From Clostridia bacterium (lineage in GTDB: Bacteria > Bacillota > Clostridia > Christensenellales > Aristaeellaceae): a stretch of DNA of 50,563 nt. Both the position numbers and the translations under genes were made by a program. Location: contig JAFQKQ010000104.1 in NCBI GenBank assembly GCA_017396845.1, positions 1 through 50,563 of the forward strand. Reading direction: 5' to 3'. Of this stretch, positions 3,134-7,642 are shown piece after piece. The first letter of the stretch is position 1, and every line of letters starts with the position of its first letter. The notes beneath the pieces were generated by a model. That model worked only from the letters and a program-made list of their open reading frames with translations. It did no database searches and was not told the origin of the DNA.

Positions 3134-3979
3134 TTATTCGGCAGCAGCCTCAGTGCTCCAAGCGGGAACGAAGGAGCCCTTGTAGAGGGTGTTGAATACT
3201 TCCGCTACTGCGTCGCACTGATAGGCTTCGGCGATGCGCAGGTATACGGGGTTGGCAAGGTCTTCTTCGCGGGCAGCGATGATGTTTACAATGCCGTGCT
3301 GGTCGGCATTGTTGGGATCATATGCCTCAACAGCGATGGCGCTCTCATGGGCATAGCCGGCCTGGGTGGCGTACTGGCCGTTCATGAAGCCGGCGGCAAC
3401 GGAGGTATCGCTCATCTGGGAACCGATCATGGCGGCGTCGAGCTCGATGAGGTTCAGCTCCAGGGGATTCTCAACGATGTCGATAACGGTGGCATAGCTG
3501 GTCAGGTTCTCGGCCAGCTTGATCAGGCCCAGAGCTTCCAGCATCTGAAGTGCGCGGGCTTCGTTTACAACGTCGTTCATAACCAGAATGGTGTCGCCCT
3601 TCTGGAACTGATCGACAGAGGTGTACTTATCGGAGTACAGGGAGAGGGGAGCGATGAGGGTCTCGCCGATGGCGGCAAGCTTCTTGCCATAGGTTTCGGC
3701 GTTCTCGTCGTTCCAGTTGTTGAGGAAGTTGTAGTGCTGGAATGCGTTCAGGTCAACGTCGCCGGTCGCGAGGGCGATGTTGGGCATTACGTAGTCGTTG
3801 AAGTAAATCAGTTCGATTTCGATGCCTTCCTTGGCGAGCTCGGGAACGAGAACCTCGGACCACTGTTCGTTGGTGGAGCCTACGACGCCAACCTTTACGT
3901 TGACGACTTCATTCTCGGCGACGGCAGTCAGCGCGAAAACGAGAACCAGTGCGGTGAGAAGAGCAAGAACCTTTTTCAT
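3134..3979 (-). CDS. metQ: Methionine ABC importer substrate-binding protein (NlpA/MetQ family)
   Basis: A 281-residue NlpA-family (periplasmic-binding type 2) protein that captures methionine, often D- and L-forms, and delivers it to MetI. The N-terminus MKKVLALLTALVLVFALTAVA is a classic signal peptide ending in an AVA|E type I cleavage site. Unlike usual Firmicutes MetQ proteins it has no lipobox cysteine, so it does not look lipid-anchored. Family signatures include VGVVGSTNEQWSEV near the mature N-terminus and DVDLNAFQHYNFL, the block that contacts ligand in MetQ. It is last in the metN-metI-metQ operon, 56 bp after metI, with AGGAGG ahead of the start. It should share the methionine-responsive leader at 6155-6378. 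Family assignment is strong; methionine specificity is supported by the NIL domain of the partner ATPase and by the Met-rich leader. Confidence 0.92.
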   Translation of the reverse strand: MKKVLALLTALVLVFALTAVAENEVVNVKVGVVGSTNEQWSEVLVPELAKEGIEIELIYFNDYVMPNIALATGDVDLNAFQHYNFLNNWNDENAETYGKKLAAIGETLIAPLSLYSDKYTSVDQFQKGDTILVMNDVVNEARALQMLEALGLIKLAENLTSYATVIDIVENPLELNLIELDAAMIGSQMSDTSVAAGFMNGQYATQAGYAHESAIAVEAYDPNNADQHGIVNIIAAREEDLANPVYLRIAEAYQCDAVAEVFNTLYKGSFVPAWSTEAAAE

Positions 3980-4035: not shown

Positions 4036-5061
4036 TCAGTGGGACAATTTGCGCTCGAGGAATGTTCCGAGCGTCTGGATGAGGGTAACCATTACGAGAA
4101 TGATGATGATGGTGACAACCGTTACATCCATCATTACGCGCTGATAGCCGTAGCGGATGGCGTAATCGCCAAGGCCGCCCGCGCCGACTGCGCCGGCCAT
4201 GGCCGTCAGGGCGATGATGTTTACGATCGTGATGGTCGCGCCGCGGATCATTCCCGGAAGACCTTCGCGAAGGTATACGCGGAAGATGATGGATACCGGA
4301 TGAAGGCCCATCGAACGCGCGGCTTCCACTACGCCGGGATCGATCTCGCAAAGCGCTGAATGAATCTGGCGGGAGAAGAAGGGCACCGTCGCTACGACCA
4401 GGGGGAAGATTGCGCCGGTTACGCCGATGGAGGTACCGACCAGAGAGCGCGTGGTTTTAATAAGAAGCGAAACCAGAATGATAAAGGGAATCGAGCGGAA
4501 TACGTTGATCAGTTTATCGAGCAGCTGGTAGATCGGCGGGCAGTCGAGAATATTGCCCTTTTCCGTAACGACCAGCGTTACGCCGAAGAGAATTCCAAAG
4601 CCAGCGCTGATGAGCGACGAGTAGCCTACCATCTGAAGCGTCTGCTTCAGGCACCTGAACAGTTCCTTCTTGGTTTTTATGACGTTTGGAATCAGGTTCT
4701 GCTGGAAGGTATCGAGGGTGTCGGCATTCTTCATGGCTTCCCATACGACGCCTGCGCCGTATGCGAGTATGAGGCTCAGGGCGGCGACGACTACGATGGT
4801 TGAAATCAAATGGCCGATGGAAAAGTTTTTAACGATGTATTTCACCGATGCATACAGTGCGTAGAGATAGGCGATGATGATCGCGCCGAAAAGCGCGGGG
4901 TACATAACATAAGTGAGCGCGCTTAACACCTTTGCTTTTACGTCTTCCATGCCTTCCAAGGAAAGAACGACTGCGCCTGTTACGGCAAGCGCGATGACGC
5001 CGATTAGTATATACAGTGCGATGCTGTTTAACCGCGCCTTTTTATTCTGCTTACTCGGCAT
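4036..5061 (-). CDS. metI: Methionine ABC importer permease with an extra N-terminal membrane domain
   Basis: The inner-membrane channel of the methionine importer. The C-terminal ~215 residues match a normal MetI. They carry the EAA loop as VVEAARSMGLHPVSIIFRVY, the cytoplasmic loop that docks on the ATPase, plus five hydrophobic segments. The protein has 341 residues whereas MetI is usually about 217. The extra ~120 residues at the N-terminus contain three further hydrophobic segments (about 14-36, 50-70 and 83-105), which I do not recognise as a named domain. The gene overlaps metN by 11 nt, indicating translational coupling, and precedes metQ. No frameshift is seen at the join, so the extension looks genuine. 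Confidence 0.9.
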   Translation of the reverse strand: MPSKQNKKARLNSIALYILIGVIALAVTGAVVLSLEGMEDVKAKVLSALTYVMYPALFGAIIIAYLYALYASVKYIVKNFSIGHLISTIVVVAALSLILAYGAGVVWEAMKNADTLDTFQQNLIPNVIKTKKELFRCLKQTLQMVGYSSLISAGFGILFGVTLVVTEKGNILDCPPIYQLLDKLINVFRSIPFIILVSLLIKTTRSLVGTSIGVTGAIFPLVVATVPFFSRQIHSALCEIDPGVVEAARSMGLHPVSIIFRVYLREGLPGMIRGATITIVNIIALTAMAGAVGAGGLGDYAIRYGYQRVMMDVTVVTIIIILVMVTLIQTLGTFLERKLSH

Positions 5062-6127
5062 GATACATCACCTCCGCAAAAATGCTCTCCCCGTCGATGG
5101 ACGAAAGCGCCGAACGAATGCTTTCATCCTTGCCCCTGAATACCGTGATCATCTTGCCCAGCGGCTTTCCGTCCAGCATTTCGATGTTTCCGTAGATGAT
5201 AGAAATATCAATATCGAATTTGCGGGAAAGATTGGATACCAGCGCATGGCCGGAGGCGCTTCCGTGGAAGGAGAGTTCGACAACGGTGTCACCCTTGGAA
5301 AGGCCGAGGGGACTGATGATATCGTCGATCTGTCCCTTTACGCGCTCAACGCCGTCGGTGGTTCCGATAAAGCGTCGGGTGATGGGCATCTGGGGATTGG
5401 AGAATACGGTGTATATATCGCCCTTTTCCACCACACTTCCGTTTTCCATAACGGCGACGGAATCGCAGATCTGCTTGACAACCGCCATTTCGTGGGTGAT
5501 TACGATGACGGTGATGCCGAGCTTGCGGTTCAAATCCTTAATGAGGGAAAGAATGTCCTGCGTGGTCTGCGGGTCGAGCGCGCTGGTCGCTTCGTCGCAC
5601 AGCAGCACCTCGGGATCGCTGGCTAATGCGCGGGCGATGGCTACGCGCTGCTTCTGACCACCGGAGAGCTCGGAGGGATAAGCGTTCAGCTTTTCTTCAA
5701 GGCCTACGATTTTCAGAAGCTCGATGGCCTTGCTGCGCCTTTGGCTTAAGGAAAGCGAGGATCCGCGAAGGGGGAAGAGCACGTTTCCCAGCACCGTTCG
5801 CGATTTCATAAGGTTGAACAGCTGGAAGATCATGCTGATCTTTTTGCGGCTCTTGCGGACTTCGGATTCCTTCATTGCGGTCAATTCTTTGCCGCCTACG
5901 AATACTTTTCCGCTCGTCGGGCGCTCAAGAAGGTTTAAGCACCGAACCAATGTGGATTTTCCTGCGCCTGAAAAGCCGATAATTCCGAAAATACTGCCCT
6001 TCTCAATTTCCAGCGATACATCAACCAATGCCCTTACGCCGGCTGCGCCGGAGCGAAAGGTCTTGTACAGATGCTCGATTCGGATCATCGGTTCCTGCGC
6101 GTTTTTCTTGTTTAATTGCATTTCCAT
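5051..6127 (-). CDS. metN: Methionine ABC importer ATP-binding protein with NIL domain
   Basis: The ATPase of the methionine importer, 358 residues. It has Walker A GFSGAGKST (residues 51-59), signature LSGGQKQR (near 154), Walker B VLLCDEATSALD, and a C-terminal NIL domain (about residues 260-350). In MetN proteins that domain binds methionine and inhibits transport when the cell is replete. The open frame extends upstream to 6199, but that stretch runs through the intrinsic terminator at 6155-6188. I therefore place the start at the ATG at 6127, which follows GGAAACGGAG by a few bases; ATG 6121 is an alternative. It is first in the operon and sits directly behind the leader-peptide attenuator. 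Confidence 0.93.
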   Translation of the reverse strand: MEMQLNKKNAQEPMIRIEHLYKTFRSGAAGVRALVDVSLEIEKGSIFGIIGFSGAGKSTLVRCLNLLERPTSGKVFVGGKELTAMKESEVRKSRKKISMIFQLFNLMKSRTVLGNVLFPLRGSSLSLSQRRSKAIELLKIVGLEEKLNAYPSELSGGQKQRVAIARALASDPEVLLCDEATSALDPQTTQDILSLIKDLNRKLGITVIVITHEMAVVKQICDSVAVMENGSVVEKGDIYTVFSNPQMPITRRFIGTTDGVERVKGQIDDIISPLGLSKGDTVVELSFHGSASGHALVSNLSRKFDIDISIIYGNIEMLDGKPLGKMITVFRGKDESIRSALSSIDGESIFAEVMYHAE

Positions 6128-6154: not shown

Positions 6155-6188
6155 AAAAAAATCAGGCGGGCCGCTGCGGCCTGCCTGA
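6155..6188 (-). terminator. Attenuator terminator in the metNIQ leader
   Basis: On the minus strand TCAGGC pairs with GCCTGA, then after one A/C mismatch GGCC pairs with GGCC around a GCAGC loop, followed immediately by seven T residues. It lies after the leader-peptide stop codon and 28 bp before the metN start, downstream of the only good promoter. It must therefore be read through for metNIQ expression. There is no T-run on the plus strand, so it is not a terminator for the divergent gene. Confidence 0.88.
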
Positions 6189-6230
6189 CGGGAAATCAAT
6201 ATTTTGAATAACCCCTATGGCTTGACTGCT

Positions 6231-6314
6231 TCAGCCGATGCAAACGAGAATAGACATGCACATCATCATGTACATGCTCATTCGCATCATCATGGCCGAA
6301 GTACTTCTCAGCAT
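6231..6314 (-). CDS. Methionine-rich leader peptide of the metNIQ operon
   Basis: A 27-codon open frame with ten methionines: at position 1, 8-10, 12, 14, 16-18 and 20. It starts with ATG at 6314, nine bases after a TTAGGAGA ribosome binding site, and ends in TGA at 6233-6231. The cluster includes two runs of three ATG codons. It sits between a consensus promoter and a Rho-independent terminator that precedes a methionine transporter. That is the textbook layout of ribosome-mediated transcription attenuation, in which stalling at codons for the cognate amino acid prevents termination. A short hairpin (GGCT/AGCC) overlaps the stop codon. I could not identify a strong antiterminator by eye. The opposite strand reads as a histidine-rich frame, but the promoter, ribosome binding site and terminator all support the methionine strand. 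Confidence 0.85.
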   Translation of the reverse strand: MLRSTSAMMMRMSMYMMMCMSILVCIG

Positions 6315-6348
6315 AAAGGCGATTCTCCTAACCTCATTGATTGTAAAC

Positions 6349-6378
6349 ATTATAAGAGTAAGCATACGGTTTTGTCAA
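6349..6378 (-). promoter_or_regulatory. Consensus sigma-A promoter of the metNIQ leader
   Basis: On the minus strand a perfect TTGACA (6373-6378) and a perfect TATAAT (6349-6354) are separated by 18 bp. Transcription should start near 6342, about 28 nt before the leader-peptide ATG. This unusually strong promoter fits control by attenuation rather than by initiation. Confidence 0.85.
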
Positions 6379-6478
6379 TGCTGTTGGCGTAAATTAACAT
6401 TTCAAATAACCCGGATTTGCAGGAATTAAGAATTCATCCATCGAAACTGTGCCTAAAAAGAGCGCAGGAGGCATGAAA

Positions 6479-7642
6479 ATGGATTTTCTTTCGCTCGCGC
6501 AAGCGGAAAAAGCATATACCGCCGAAATGTATCGGCTGTTTCACAGAATTCCCGAAAAATCGCGCCATGAAACGGAAACCAACCGGCAGATCCGATTGGC
6601 GCTTCAAAAGGAAGGAATTGGGTATCTCGCGCCGAAGGACAATATCACAATCGCCGTCATACGGGGCGCGCGTCCCGGAAAAGTATGCGCGATTCGCTCG
6701 GATACGGACGCGTTGCAGCTTACAGAGGATACCGGGCTTTCCTATGCTTCTCAGAATTCCGGCATGATGCACGCCTGCGGACACGATTCGCATATCGCCA
6801 TAGGGCTTACGTGCGCGAAGATTTTGAACCGCATAAAGGACGAGCTTCCGGGTACGGTCAAAATCATTTTCCAGCCGGCGGAGGAGGGGGAATTCGGCGC
6901 ACAGGCGGTGATGGAGACCGGGCTTGTGAATGATGTAAACGCCTTCTTTGCCGTTCATGTGTGGAGTCCGTTCAAGACCGGTGAAATGCGTGTGTCTTCA
7001 AAGGGCGTAGCCGCCAGCACCGACATGTTTACCATTACGCTTAAGGGGCGCGGCGGACATGGCGCGGTTCCCGATGCATGCATTGATACGGTGGTGGCCG
7101 CTTCTCAGCTGGTAATCAATCTTCAGTCGATCGTATCCCGTTTTACCTCGCCTTTTTCGCCGGTGGTCGTGACAATCGGAAGTCTGCACGCAGGGACGAG
7201 ATGCAATATCATCGCAGGCGAAGCGGTGCTGGAAGGAACGATCAGAACCTTTGATCCCGATGTGTATAAAGCGGTTCACGAGGATTTTGACAGAATTGTC
7301 ATGAATACCGCGGGAATGTATAAGTGCGGATATGAAATCGACATGCGCCCGGCTTGCGGCGTTACCTATAACGACGAGGCGCTTGTGAAAACGGCGCTTG
7401 AAAACGCCGGAAAAATCGCGCCTCCCGATTCGGTCGGCCCGGATGAAATGTCCACGCTCGGCGACGATTTCGGCGAGTACAGGTCGATTGCGCCCGTATG
7501 CTATATGAAGGTAGGCATCAGAAACGAGGAGATCGACGCGGTGTATGCGCATCATCATCCAAAGTTCAAGGTAGATGAAAACGCGCTTCCGAGGGCTGTC
7601 GCATGGCTTGTGATGAACGCGCACAGCTTTTTGGATCAATAA
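6479..7642 (+). CDS. M20-family amidohydrolase (N-acyl amino acid / hippurate hydrolase type)
   Basis: A 387-residue zinc-dependent M20D-type amidohydrolase of the family that releases amino acids from N-acyl or conjugated forms. Visible metal-site motifs are MHACGHD (C100, H102), FQPAEEG (E135/E136), HVWSP (H160) and a C-terminal AHHHPKF histidine. A dimerisation insert follows residue ~170. AGGAGG lies 7 nt before the ATG at 6479; an in-frame ATG at 6473 is too close to that site and the frame opening at 6449 lacks one. It has no signal peptide and so should act in the cytoplasm. It is divergent from the methionine importer operon, so a role in salvaging an N-acylated or peptide-linked amino acid is possible. 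The substrate cannot be read from the sequence. Confidence 0.88.
   Translation: MDFLSLAQAEKAYTAEMYRLFHRIPEKSRHETETNRQIRLALQKEGIGYLAPKDNITIAVIRGARPGKVCAIRSDTDALQLTEDTGLSYASQNSGMMHACGHDSHIAIGLTCAKILNRIKDELPGTVKIIFQPAEEGEFGAQAVMETGLVNDVNAFFAVHVWSPFKTGEMRVSSKGVAASTDMFTITLKGRGGHGAVPDACIDTVVAASQLVINLQSIVSRFTSPFSPVVVTIGSLHAGTRCNIIAGEAVLEGTIRTFDPDVYKAVHEDFDRIVMNTAGMYKCGYEIDMRPACGVTYNDEALVKTALENAGKIAPPDSVGPDEMSTLGDDFGEYRSIAPVCYMKVGIRNEEIDAVYAHHHPKFKVDENALPRAVAWLVMNAHSFLDQ

Follow-up and report, generated by a model that had tools for sequence, protein, structure and literature searches.

A putative methionine-codon leader-peptide attenuator ahead of metNIQ-type importer genes in Clostridia

Introduction

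What controls the metNIQ operon of a Clostridia genome in which a short Met-rich reading frame and a hairpin stand between the promoter and metN? The methionine genes of Bacillota are usually assigned to riboswitches or T-boxes, and methionine is the first residue of every protein; for both reasons a leader-peptide switch for this amino acid is unexpected. The well-known trpL and hisL leaders are trp/his-type ribosome-mediated transcription attenuators, and the original prediction, made for the 50,563-nt stretch of DNA called the window here, placed the metNIQ leader in the same class. We have followed this up by considering the layout of the locus, its relatives, the codon content of the leaders and the pairings open to their RNA.

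Layout of the leader and the importer genes

Between 6378 and 3134 the minus strand carries, in this order, a promoter, a Shine-Dalgarno (SD) sequence, the leader ORF, a hairpin with seven T, metN, metI and metQ (Table 1). As a trp/his-type attenuator requires, the leader ORF with its ribosome-binding site sits between promoter and terminator, and the intrinsic terminator is placed after the ORF and before metN. The elements that had been read by eye hold up: both promoter hexamers are perfect, the ribosome-binding site is a good one, ORF translation gives the 27-codon frame with its ten Met codons, and folding gives the GC-rich hairpin followed by seven T ahead of the metN start.

Table 1. 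Features of the metNIQ locus in the window
Feature	Positions	Strand	Basis
Promoter: TTGACA (6378-6373), 18-bp spacer, TATAAT (6354-6349)	6349..6378	minus	consensus matches 12/12
Ribosome-binding site (SD) AGGAG of leader ORF (6329-6325)	6325..6329	minus	direct reading
Leader ORF, 27 codons, stop TGA at 6233-6231	6231..6314	minus	direct reading and ORF translation
Region 1, CTTCGGCC, adjoining the first ATGATGATG on its 5' side	6294..6301	minus	predicted pairing with region 2
Hairpin formed by the Met-codon stretch itself	6254..6277	minus	folding
Region 2, CGGCTGAAG, spanning the stop codon	6229..6237	minus	folding
Spacer segment, predicted partner of leader ribosome-binding site and start (6326-6313)	6205..6219	minus	folding
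Region 3, terminator 5' arm	6177..6189	minus	folding
Region 4, terminator 3' arm (6173-6161), with seven T (6161-6155)	6155..6173	minus	direct reading and folding
metN, ATPase with NIL domain (start ATG at 6127)	5051..6127	minus	TIGR02314 373.8 bits, below cut-off 499.7; NIL domain by Pfam
metI, permease	4036..5061	minus	NF008049 169.6 bits, below cut-off 212; PF00528
metQ, substrate-binding lipoprotein	3134..3979	minus	NF008285 175.3 and TIGR00363 164.9 bits, both below cut-offs; PF03180 228.4 bits, above

The leader ORF (6314-6231, minus strand) translates as MLRSTSAMMMRMSMYMMMCMSILVCIG before its stop. Methionine takes 10 of the 27 codons, the start included, with two runs of three ATG. The terminator hairpin (6189-6161, minus strand) folds at -20.7 kcal/mol; it is absent from the output of a consensus scanner, which lists a hairpin at 6600-6578 instead, and appears in two separate folds. 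Across the genome assembly (73% complete), 16 matches to the pattern ATGnnnATGnnnATG..ATG fall at 11 places, and five of the 16 lie inside the leader ORF. Three of the other places are single matches in open frames 31-38 codons long, and eight of the ten non-leader places read as matches within open frames of 31 to more than 100 codons. For the leader peptides submitted to them, NCBIfam and Pfam gave no known family.

MetN, MetI and MetQ are members of their families, yet they score under the NCBIfam curated cut-offs for the MetN, MetI and MetQ models; the window's MetQ clears the Pfam cut-off for NlpA lipoproteins. Because of this family membership, the NIL domain and the Pfam score of MetQ, methionine is the likely substrate of the importer. 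At its N terminus the window's MetI is extended by about 110 residues (4732-5061, minus strand), a part left uncovered by the matches of relatives: the match of G001 begins at residue 81 and those of most other relatives at 100 or later. Adjoining the leader is a divergent gene for an M20-type amidohydrolase (6449-7642, plus strand; TIGR01891 311.5 bits, above cut-off), which is kept in G001.

The usual regulators of methionine genes were sought with Rfam. At gathering scores a tRNA is the sole match in the whole window, and around the leader nothing credible appears at E values up to 10. In the metNIQ leader itself neither the S-box (RF00162) nor the T-box family was matched, in agreement with the earlier reading that neither was visible there, and none was found in the 20 loci scanned, 19 of them from other genomes. 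The genome assembly does have one SAM riboswitch match, ahead of metK. By regular expression, a T-box motif was seen in L117 and L260 only (the latter a named locus), and S-box motifs in the named loci L225, L235 and L254.

Conservation among relatives

MetI was sought in 200 relatives, from which 130 metI loci were collected (30, then 100), the window's included. A short Met-rich, mostly Met- and Cys-rich, ORF followed by a terminator is present at about 67 of the 130 metNIQ loci, a tally in which L051, L054 and L131 are weak members; the misses, about half of the loci, include contig ends, stretches outside the collected sequence and loci possibly lacking a leader. Forty leader ORFs were picked by eye from scans. 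A strict scan of the 91 remaining loci gave 16 matches, of which L038 was dropped, and none of the 130 loci matched on the opposite strand. With relaxed criteria, 76 loci yielded three matches (L127 was added, L126 had been counted already and L086 was dropped), with 9 of 130 on the opposite strand. Upstream of metQ, nine of 14 stretches carry a leader on the operon's strand. L157 and L162 give the leaders of L025 and L003, the latter presumably, its leader lying on another contig.

If Met cluster and terminator belong together, as the original prediction supposed, relatives should keep both: many do, but some terminator loci are without such an ORF. Similar leaders reach beyond the window's family to other Clostridia, including Clostridium sp. 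N3C (L227), to Candidatus Ventrousia (L221) and to Synergistaceae (L242; Synergistota), and a Spirochaetales genome (L209) has a Met/Cys ORF without a terminator. A family pattern search of 308 genomes found a match in 184, but long reading frames matched too.

The G001 leader occupies the same locus as the window's, adjoining the M20 amidohydrolase (68% identical). G002 belongs to the window's genus, and its leader matches the window's at 88% over 67 bp, whereas its MetI is 40% identical to the window's and falls in another clade; leader and importer can therefore come apart.

Several arrangements depart from the common one. In genus g25 (L035, L036, L057, L149, L150; G065, G089, G026) a Met-rich leader with terminator, for example MKRVSTMRMFMMCEEMSIALLGLHGNA, faces away from metN; it points to a short ORF and a gene that we take to be YdcF-like (DUF218), and occurs in three species. 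L035, L036 and L057 are among the nine opposite-strand matches of the relaxed scan. L045 and L049 have a Met/Cys-rich leader and terminator downstream of metI, ahead of a separate metQ. L083, L111, L120, L123 and L124 carry Cys-run leaders (e.g., MTVRQKMCCCPGCMIAALPL) ahead of metI genes whose products form a single, very divergent clade (support 100/100, branch 2.15, with a long-branch warning), and cysteine exceeds methionine in four of these five. The importer of that clade is perhaps a cysteine importer. In the MetI tree, leaders with more Cys than Met group together, a pattern for which shared descent could account and in which long branches are flagged.

The leaders of the window's family often contain a recurrent motif, A-M-R-M-S/F-M. 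This would suit a Met/Cys-rich peptide that arrests the ribosome on meeting a small molecule, be it free Met, SAM or a metal; TnaC acts in this way with tryptophan. We regard such a nascent-chain sensor as unlikely: leaders ahead of the same genes share little past their Met/Cys content (e.g., L011, L014, L043, L115), which fits the reading of codons better than that of a fixed peptide.

Enrichment of Met and Cys codons

Selection by eye plays no part in the following test. It takes in all SD-preceded ORFs of 12-45 codons, of any composition, whose end lies a short way ahead of a terminator upstream of metN; the terminator had to reach -13 kcal/mol or lower with at least 200 nt present, and 61 of the 130 loci qualify. 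There are 48 such ORFs, in 43 of the 61 loci, against 10.8 per shuffled replicate. Methionine makes up 15.9% of their residues against 2.7% (5.9-fold) and cysteine 11.7% against 4.2% (2.8-fold); the remaining residues reach 1.17-fold at most. Two or more Met together with two or more Cys are present in 30 of the 48. Met and Cys together reach at least 25% in 31 ORFs (2/216 in shuffled sequence), at 31 of the 61 terminator loci, and at least four internal Met occur in 24 (shuffled, 1/216). Named genomes contributed 80 loci, five of them dropped as copies of loci already used and 32 with a terminator; their 19 ORFs are enriched 4.9-fold in Met and 2.0-fold in Cys (at least 25% Met and Cys in 10/19, against 1/136 shuffled).

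The Met cluster of the leader ORF is thus beyond chance. With 10 Met codons of 27, the window's leader is rich in the codon for the very amino acid that the downstream genes presumably handle, their substrate being taken from protein family only. Methionine had been proposed as the signal, and the Met-codon leader fits that; but because most relatives mix Met with Cys, the signal probably comprises both sulphur amino acids.

Competing RNA pairings

In the window, region 1 (6301-6294) is predicted to pair with 6236-6229, the whole 1:2 duplex reaching -14.7 kcal/mol. Region 2 may pair alternatively with the 5' arm of the terminator, through CGGCT and GGCCG (6181-6177); the CGGC/GCCG pairing suspected from the outset belongs to this predicted antiterminator. 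When the A site of a ribosome is set on codon 8, 10 or 18, 6237-6233 folds onto GGCCG 6181-6177 around an inner spacer hairpin; codons 12 and 14 favor other pairs with the terminator arm. A ribosome at the stop hides region 2, and the remaining pairing amounts to -8.3 kcal/mol, against -20.7 for the terminator. In the congeners G001 (L162) and G002 (L112) the arm folds onto the post-stop region despite a much altered spacer. The pairing of 6205-6219 with 6326-6313 reaches -11.1 kcal/mol, a value that 39% of swapped partners equal. Compared singly with shuffled RNA, the antiterminator is no better than shuffling in any of the three (z -0.41 in the window, 0.33 and -0.47 in the congeners). Support for the folding logic of a ribosome on the leader, as originally proposed, comes from the family and not from the window alone.

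For the family, 57 leaders with a terminator were tested (39 of the 40 picked by eye and 18 found later) in 29 groups, which are genera or single loci without an assigned genus, a few such loci sharing a genus. Against shuffled RNA, the stretch from ORF end to terminator pairs with the terminator 5' arm at a mean z of -1.73 over the 57 loci, with z below -1 in 35 and above +1 in none; by group the mean is -1.35, with 23 of 29 negative. Measured against swapped partners, the Met/Cys cluster forms the more stable pairing with RNA around the stop in 19 of 29 groups (p 0.0065); for the ribosome-binding site and start, paired with leader RNA further downstream, this holds in 26 of 29 (p 7e-6). The three competing pairings are thus better than controls within the window's family.

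Narrower comparisons bear on these pairings. The genera of the 34 aligned leaders with an M-R-M motif or close variant were split into 14 groups, and the Met cluster with the RNA round or after the stop averages -16.9 kcal/mol over these groups, against -14.3 when the partner comes from another group and -11.2 shuffled; the consensus fold of the 34 is weak (-11.1 kcal/mol). An alignment of ten g13 leaders was excluded from pair counts, the ribosome-binding-site helix shifting register there. With leaders swapped between 39 loci, whole-leader complementarity to the terminator 5' arm gives no signal (mean rank 0.51). Pairing of the Met cluster with the arm gives none either (mean genus rank 0.505). 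In 34 loci the conserved stretch TTTGTGTTGCG with arm and loop reaches -10.1 kcal/mol against -7.8 shuffled, but against swapped partners it is hardly better (-12.4 versus -11.4). Outside the family, 11 leaders do no better than chance in the pairing tests (5 negative for the antiterminator, 6 for the ribosome-binding-site helix); a twelfth, L209, was left out for want of a terminator. In L118 (G116), CTTCTG stands in place of the usual TTTGTG behind the Met cluster, and CAGGAG in place of CGCAAA on the loop side of the terminator, which looks like a double compensatory change.

Folding with a stalled ribosome gives greater arm pairing than folding with one at the stop in 54 of 56 loci. The arm pairing is 0.60 stalled and 0.22 at the stop, against 0.55 and 0.32 in shuffled RNA, so that shuffled RNA gives part of the contrast and the stalled value is itself hardly higher than the shuffled one. 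Ribosome-free RNA is predicted to pair the arm at 0.64, about as stalled RNA is, so that these folds lend no support to a default to termination without translation.

The helix at the ribosome-binding site, found in many members, together with the need for fMet at every leader start, would suit a device that reads fMet supply rather than elongation, with the multiple Met codons secondary. This leaves the internal Met and Cys enrichment unexplained, and we consider it very unlikely. A further alternative makes the Met codons a by-product of a conserved RNA sequence. In one large subgroup ATGCGAATG and TTTGTGTTGCG are indeed conserved as DNA, the latter even where the ORF ends before it (L069, L098, L102, L108, L168). 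Other subgroups, which are without these sequences, still have a ribosome-binding site, a stop codon and, in frame between them, the Met/Cys enrichment, which leaves this alternative less probable again. Least probable of all is that the ORF makes a functional peptide whose transcript the hairpin simply ends: Met/Cys-rich peptides are able to bind soft metals, but the linkage to metNIQ is repeated across loci, the 5' arm of the hairpin interacts with the RNA that separates it from the ORF, and the consensus scan lists no second promoter-like site on the minus strand between 6000 and 6600.

Proposed mechanism

In sum, we think it likely that a trp/his-type ribosome-mediated transcription attenuator controls metNIQ. 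The original reading to this effect is supported by the leader layout, the Met/Cys enrichment, the conservation and the family-level pairings. Directly supported are the ORF, the promoter and terminator sequence, the enrichment, the conservation and the pairing statistics of the family; translation, stalling, readthrough, the roles of the pairings and the signal are what we infer.

A ribosome would begin the leader ORF close behind RNA polymerase. When charged tRNA-Met (in most relatives, tRNA-Cys too) is ample, it would pass the Met/Cys codons and reach the stop, where it would cover region 2, allowing the terminator to form and turning the importer off. When charged tRNA is scarce, the ribosome would stall in the Met cluster and bar region 1 from region 2; the freed region 2 and the spacer could then pair with the terminator 5' arm, and transcription would continue into metNIQ. 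The helix of the leader's own ribosome-binding site with the downstream leader may curb re-initiation, in which case mainly the first ribosome would be read. Counting against attenuation is that a shortage of Met limits initiation too.

More tentatively, and with rather less than even confidence, we suggest that the leaders belong to an undescribed family of attenuators, widespread on metNIQ-type importers in several phyla and with leader peptides serving Met and Cys alike, in which the ribosome-binding-site helix would cause the first ribosome to be read, the Met:Cys make-up would tell the importer's substrate, and one Cys-run type would belong to a single very divergent MetI clade. If the attenuator works as proposed, many uncultured Clostridia would sense shortage of Met (and Cys) by the ribosome, the make-up of a leader might hint at the substrate of its importer, and it would become testable whether initiation gives out before stalling sets in at elongator Met codons.

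Comparison with known systems

The original prediction knew of no well-characterised Met leader-peptide attenuator in Clostridia. In the open-licence literature searched no experimentally tested case was found, but there is a predicted precedent: a report on Streptomyces lividans TK24 predicts, from transcript data, a metL leader before metNIQ (PMC8079986). Like the present leaders it is a short ORF, with an end, CMCRRMCAF, rich in Met and Cys; unlike them it is described there as leaderless and as lacking a typical Rho-independent terminator, and its authors stress Met and Thr. Actinobacterial cys-operon leader peptides share the runs of Cys codons in a leader ORF of sulphur genes, but they have Cys only, precede different genes and no terminators were found there; the same paper reports no conserved RNA structure upstream of actinobacterial Met operons (PMC1262725).

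Elsewhere in Bacillota, Met transporters are reported to be under a T-box (PMC7058034) or, for metT, an S-box (PMC2940859). The T-box of the Lactococcus lactis met operon likewise controls a high-affinity Met transporter via tRNA-Met charging, but there the RNA is directly bound by uncharged tRNA and no leader peptide takes part (PMC7058034). The S-box riboswitch also controls Met genes by termination; in Clostridium perfringens it is placed at metK and metT (PMC2940859). The window's genome has one before metK; the S-box senses SAM, however, and was not found in the window's metNIQ leader.

The closest likeness is to the trp/his attenuators: a leader ORF rich in cognate codons, a terminator and the (here predicted) alternative pairings 1:2, 2:3 and 3:4. 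His leader peptides in bacilli are an instance (PMC2965389). The metNIQ leaders differ in that the codons are for Met, mixed with Cys in most relatives, that the gene governed would be an importer, that the putative signal is the initiating amino acid, and that they commonly have their own ribosome-binding site covered by a predicted helix.
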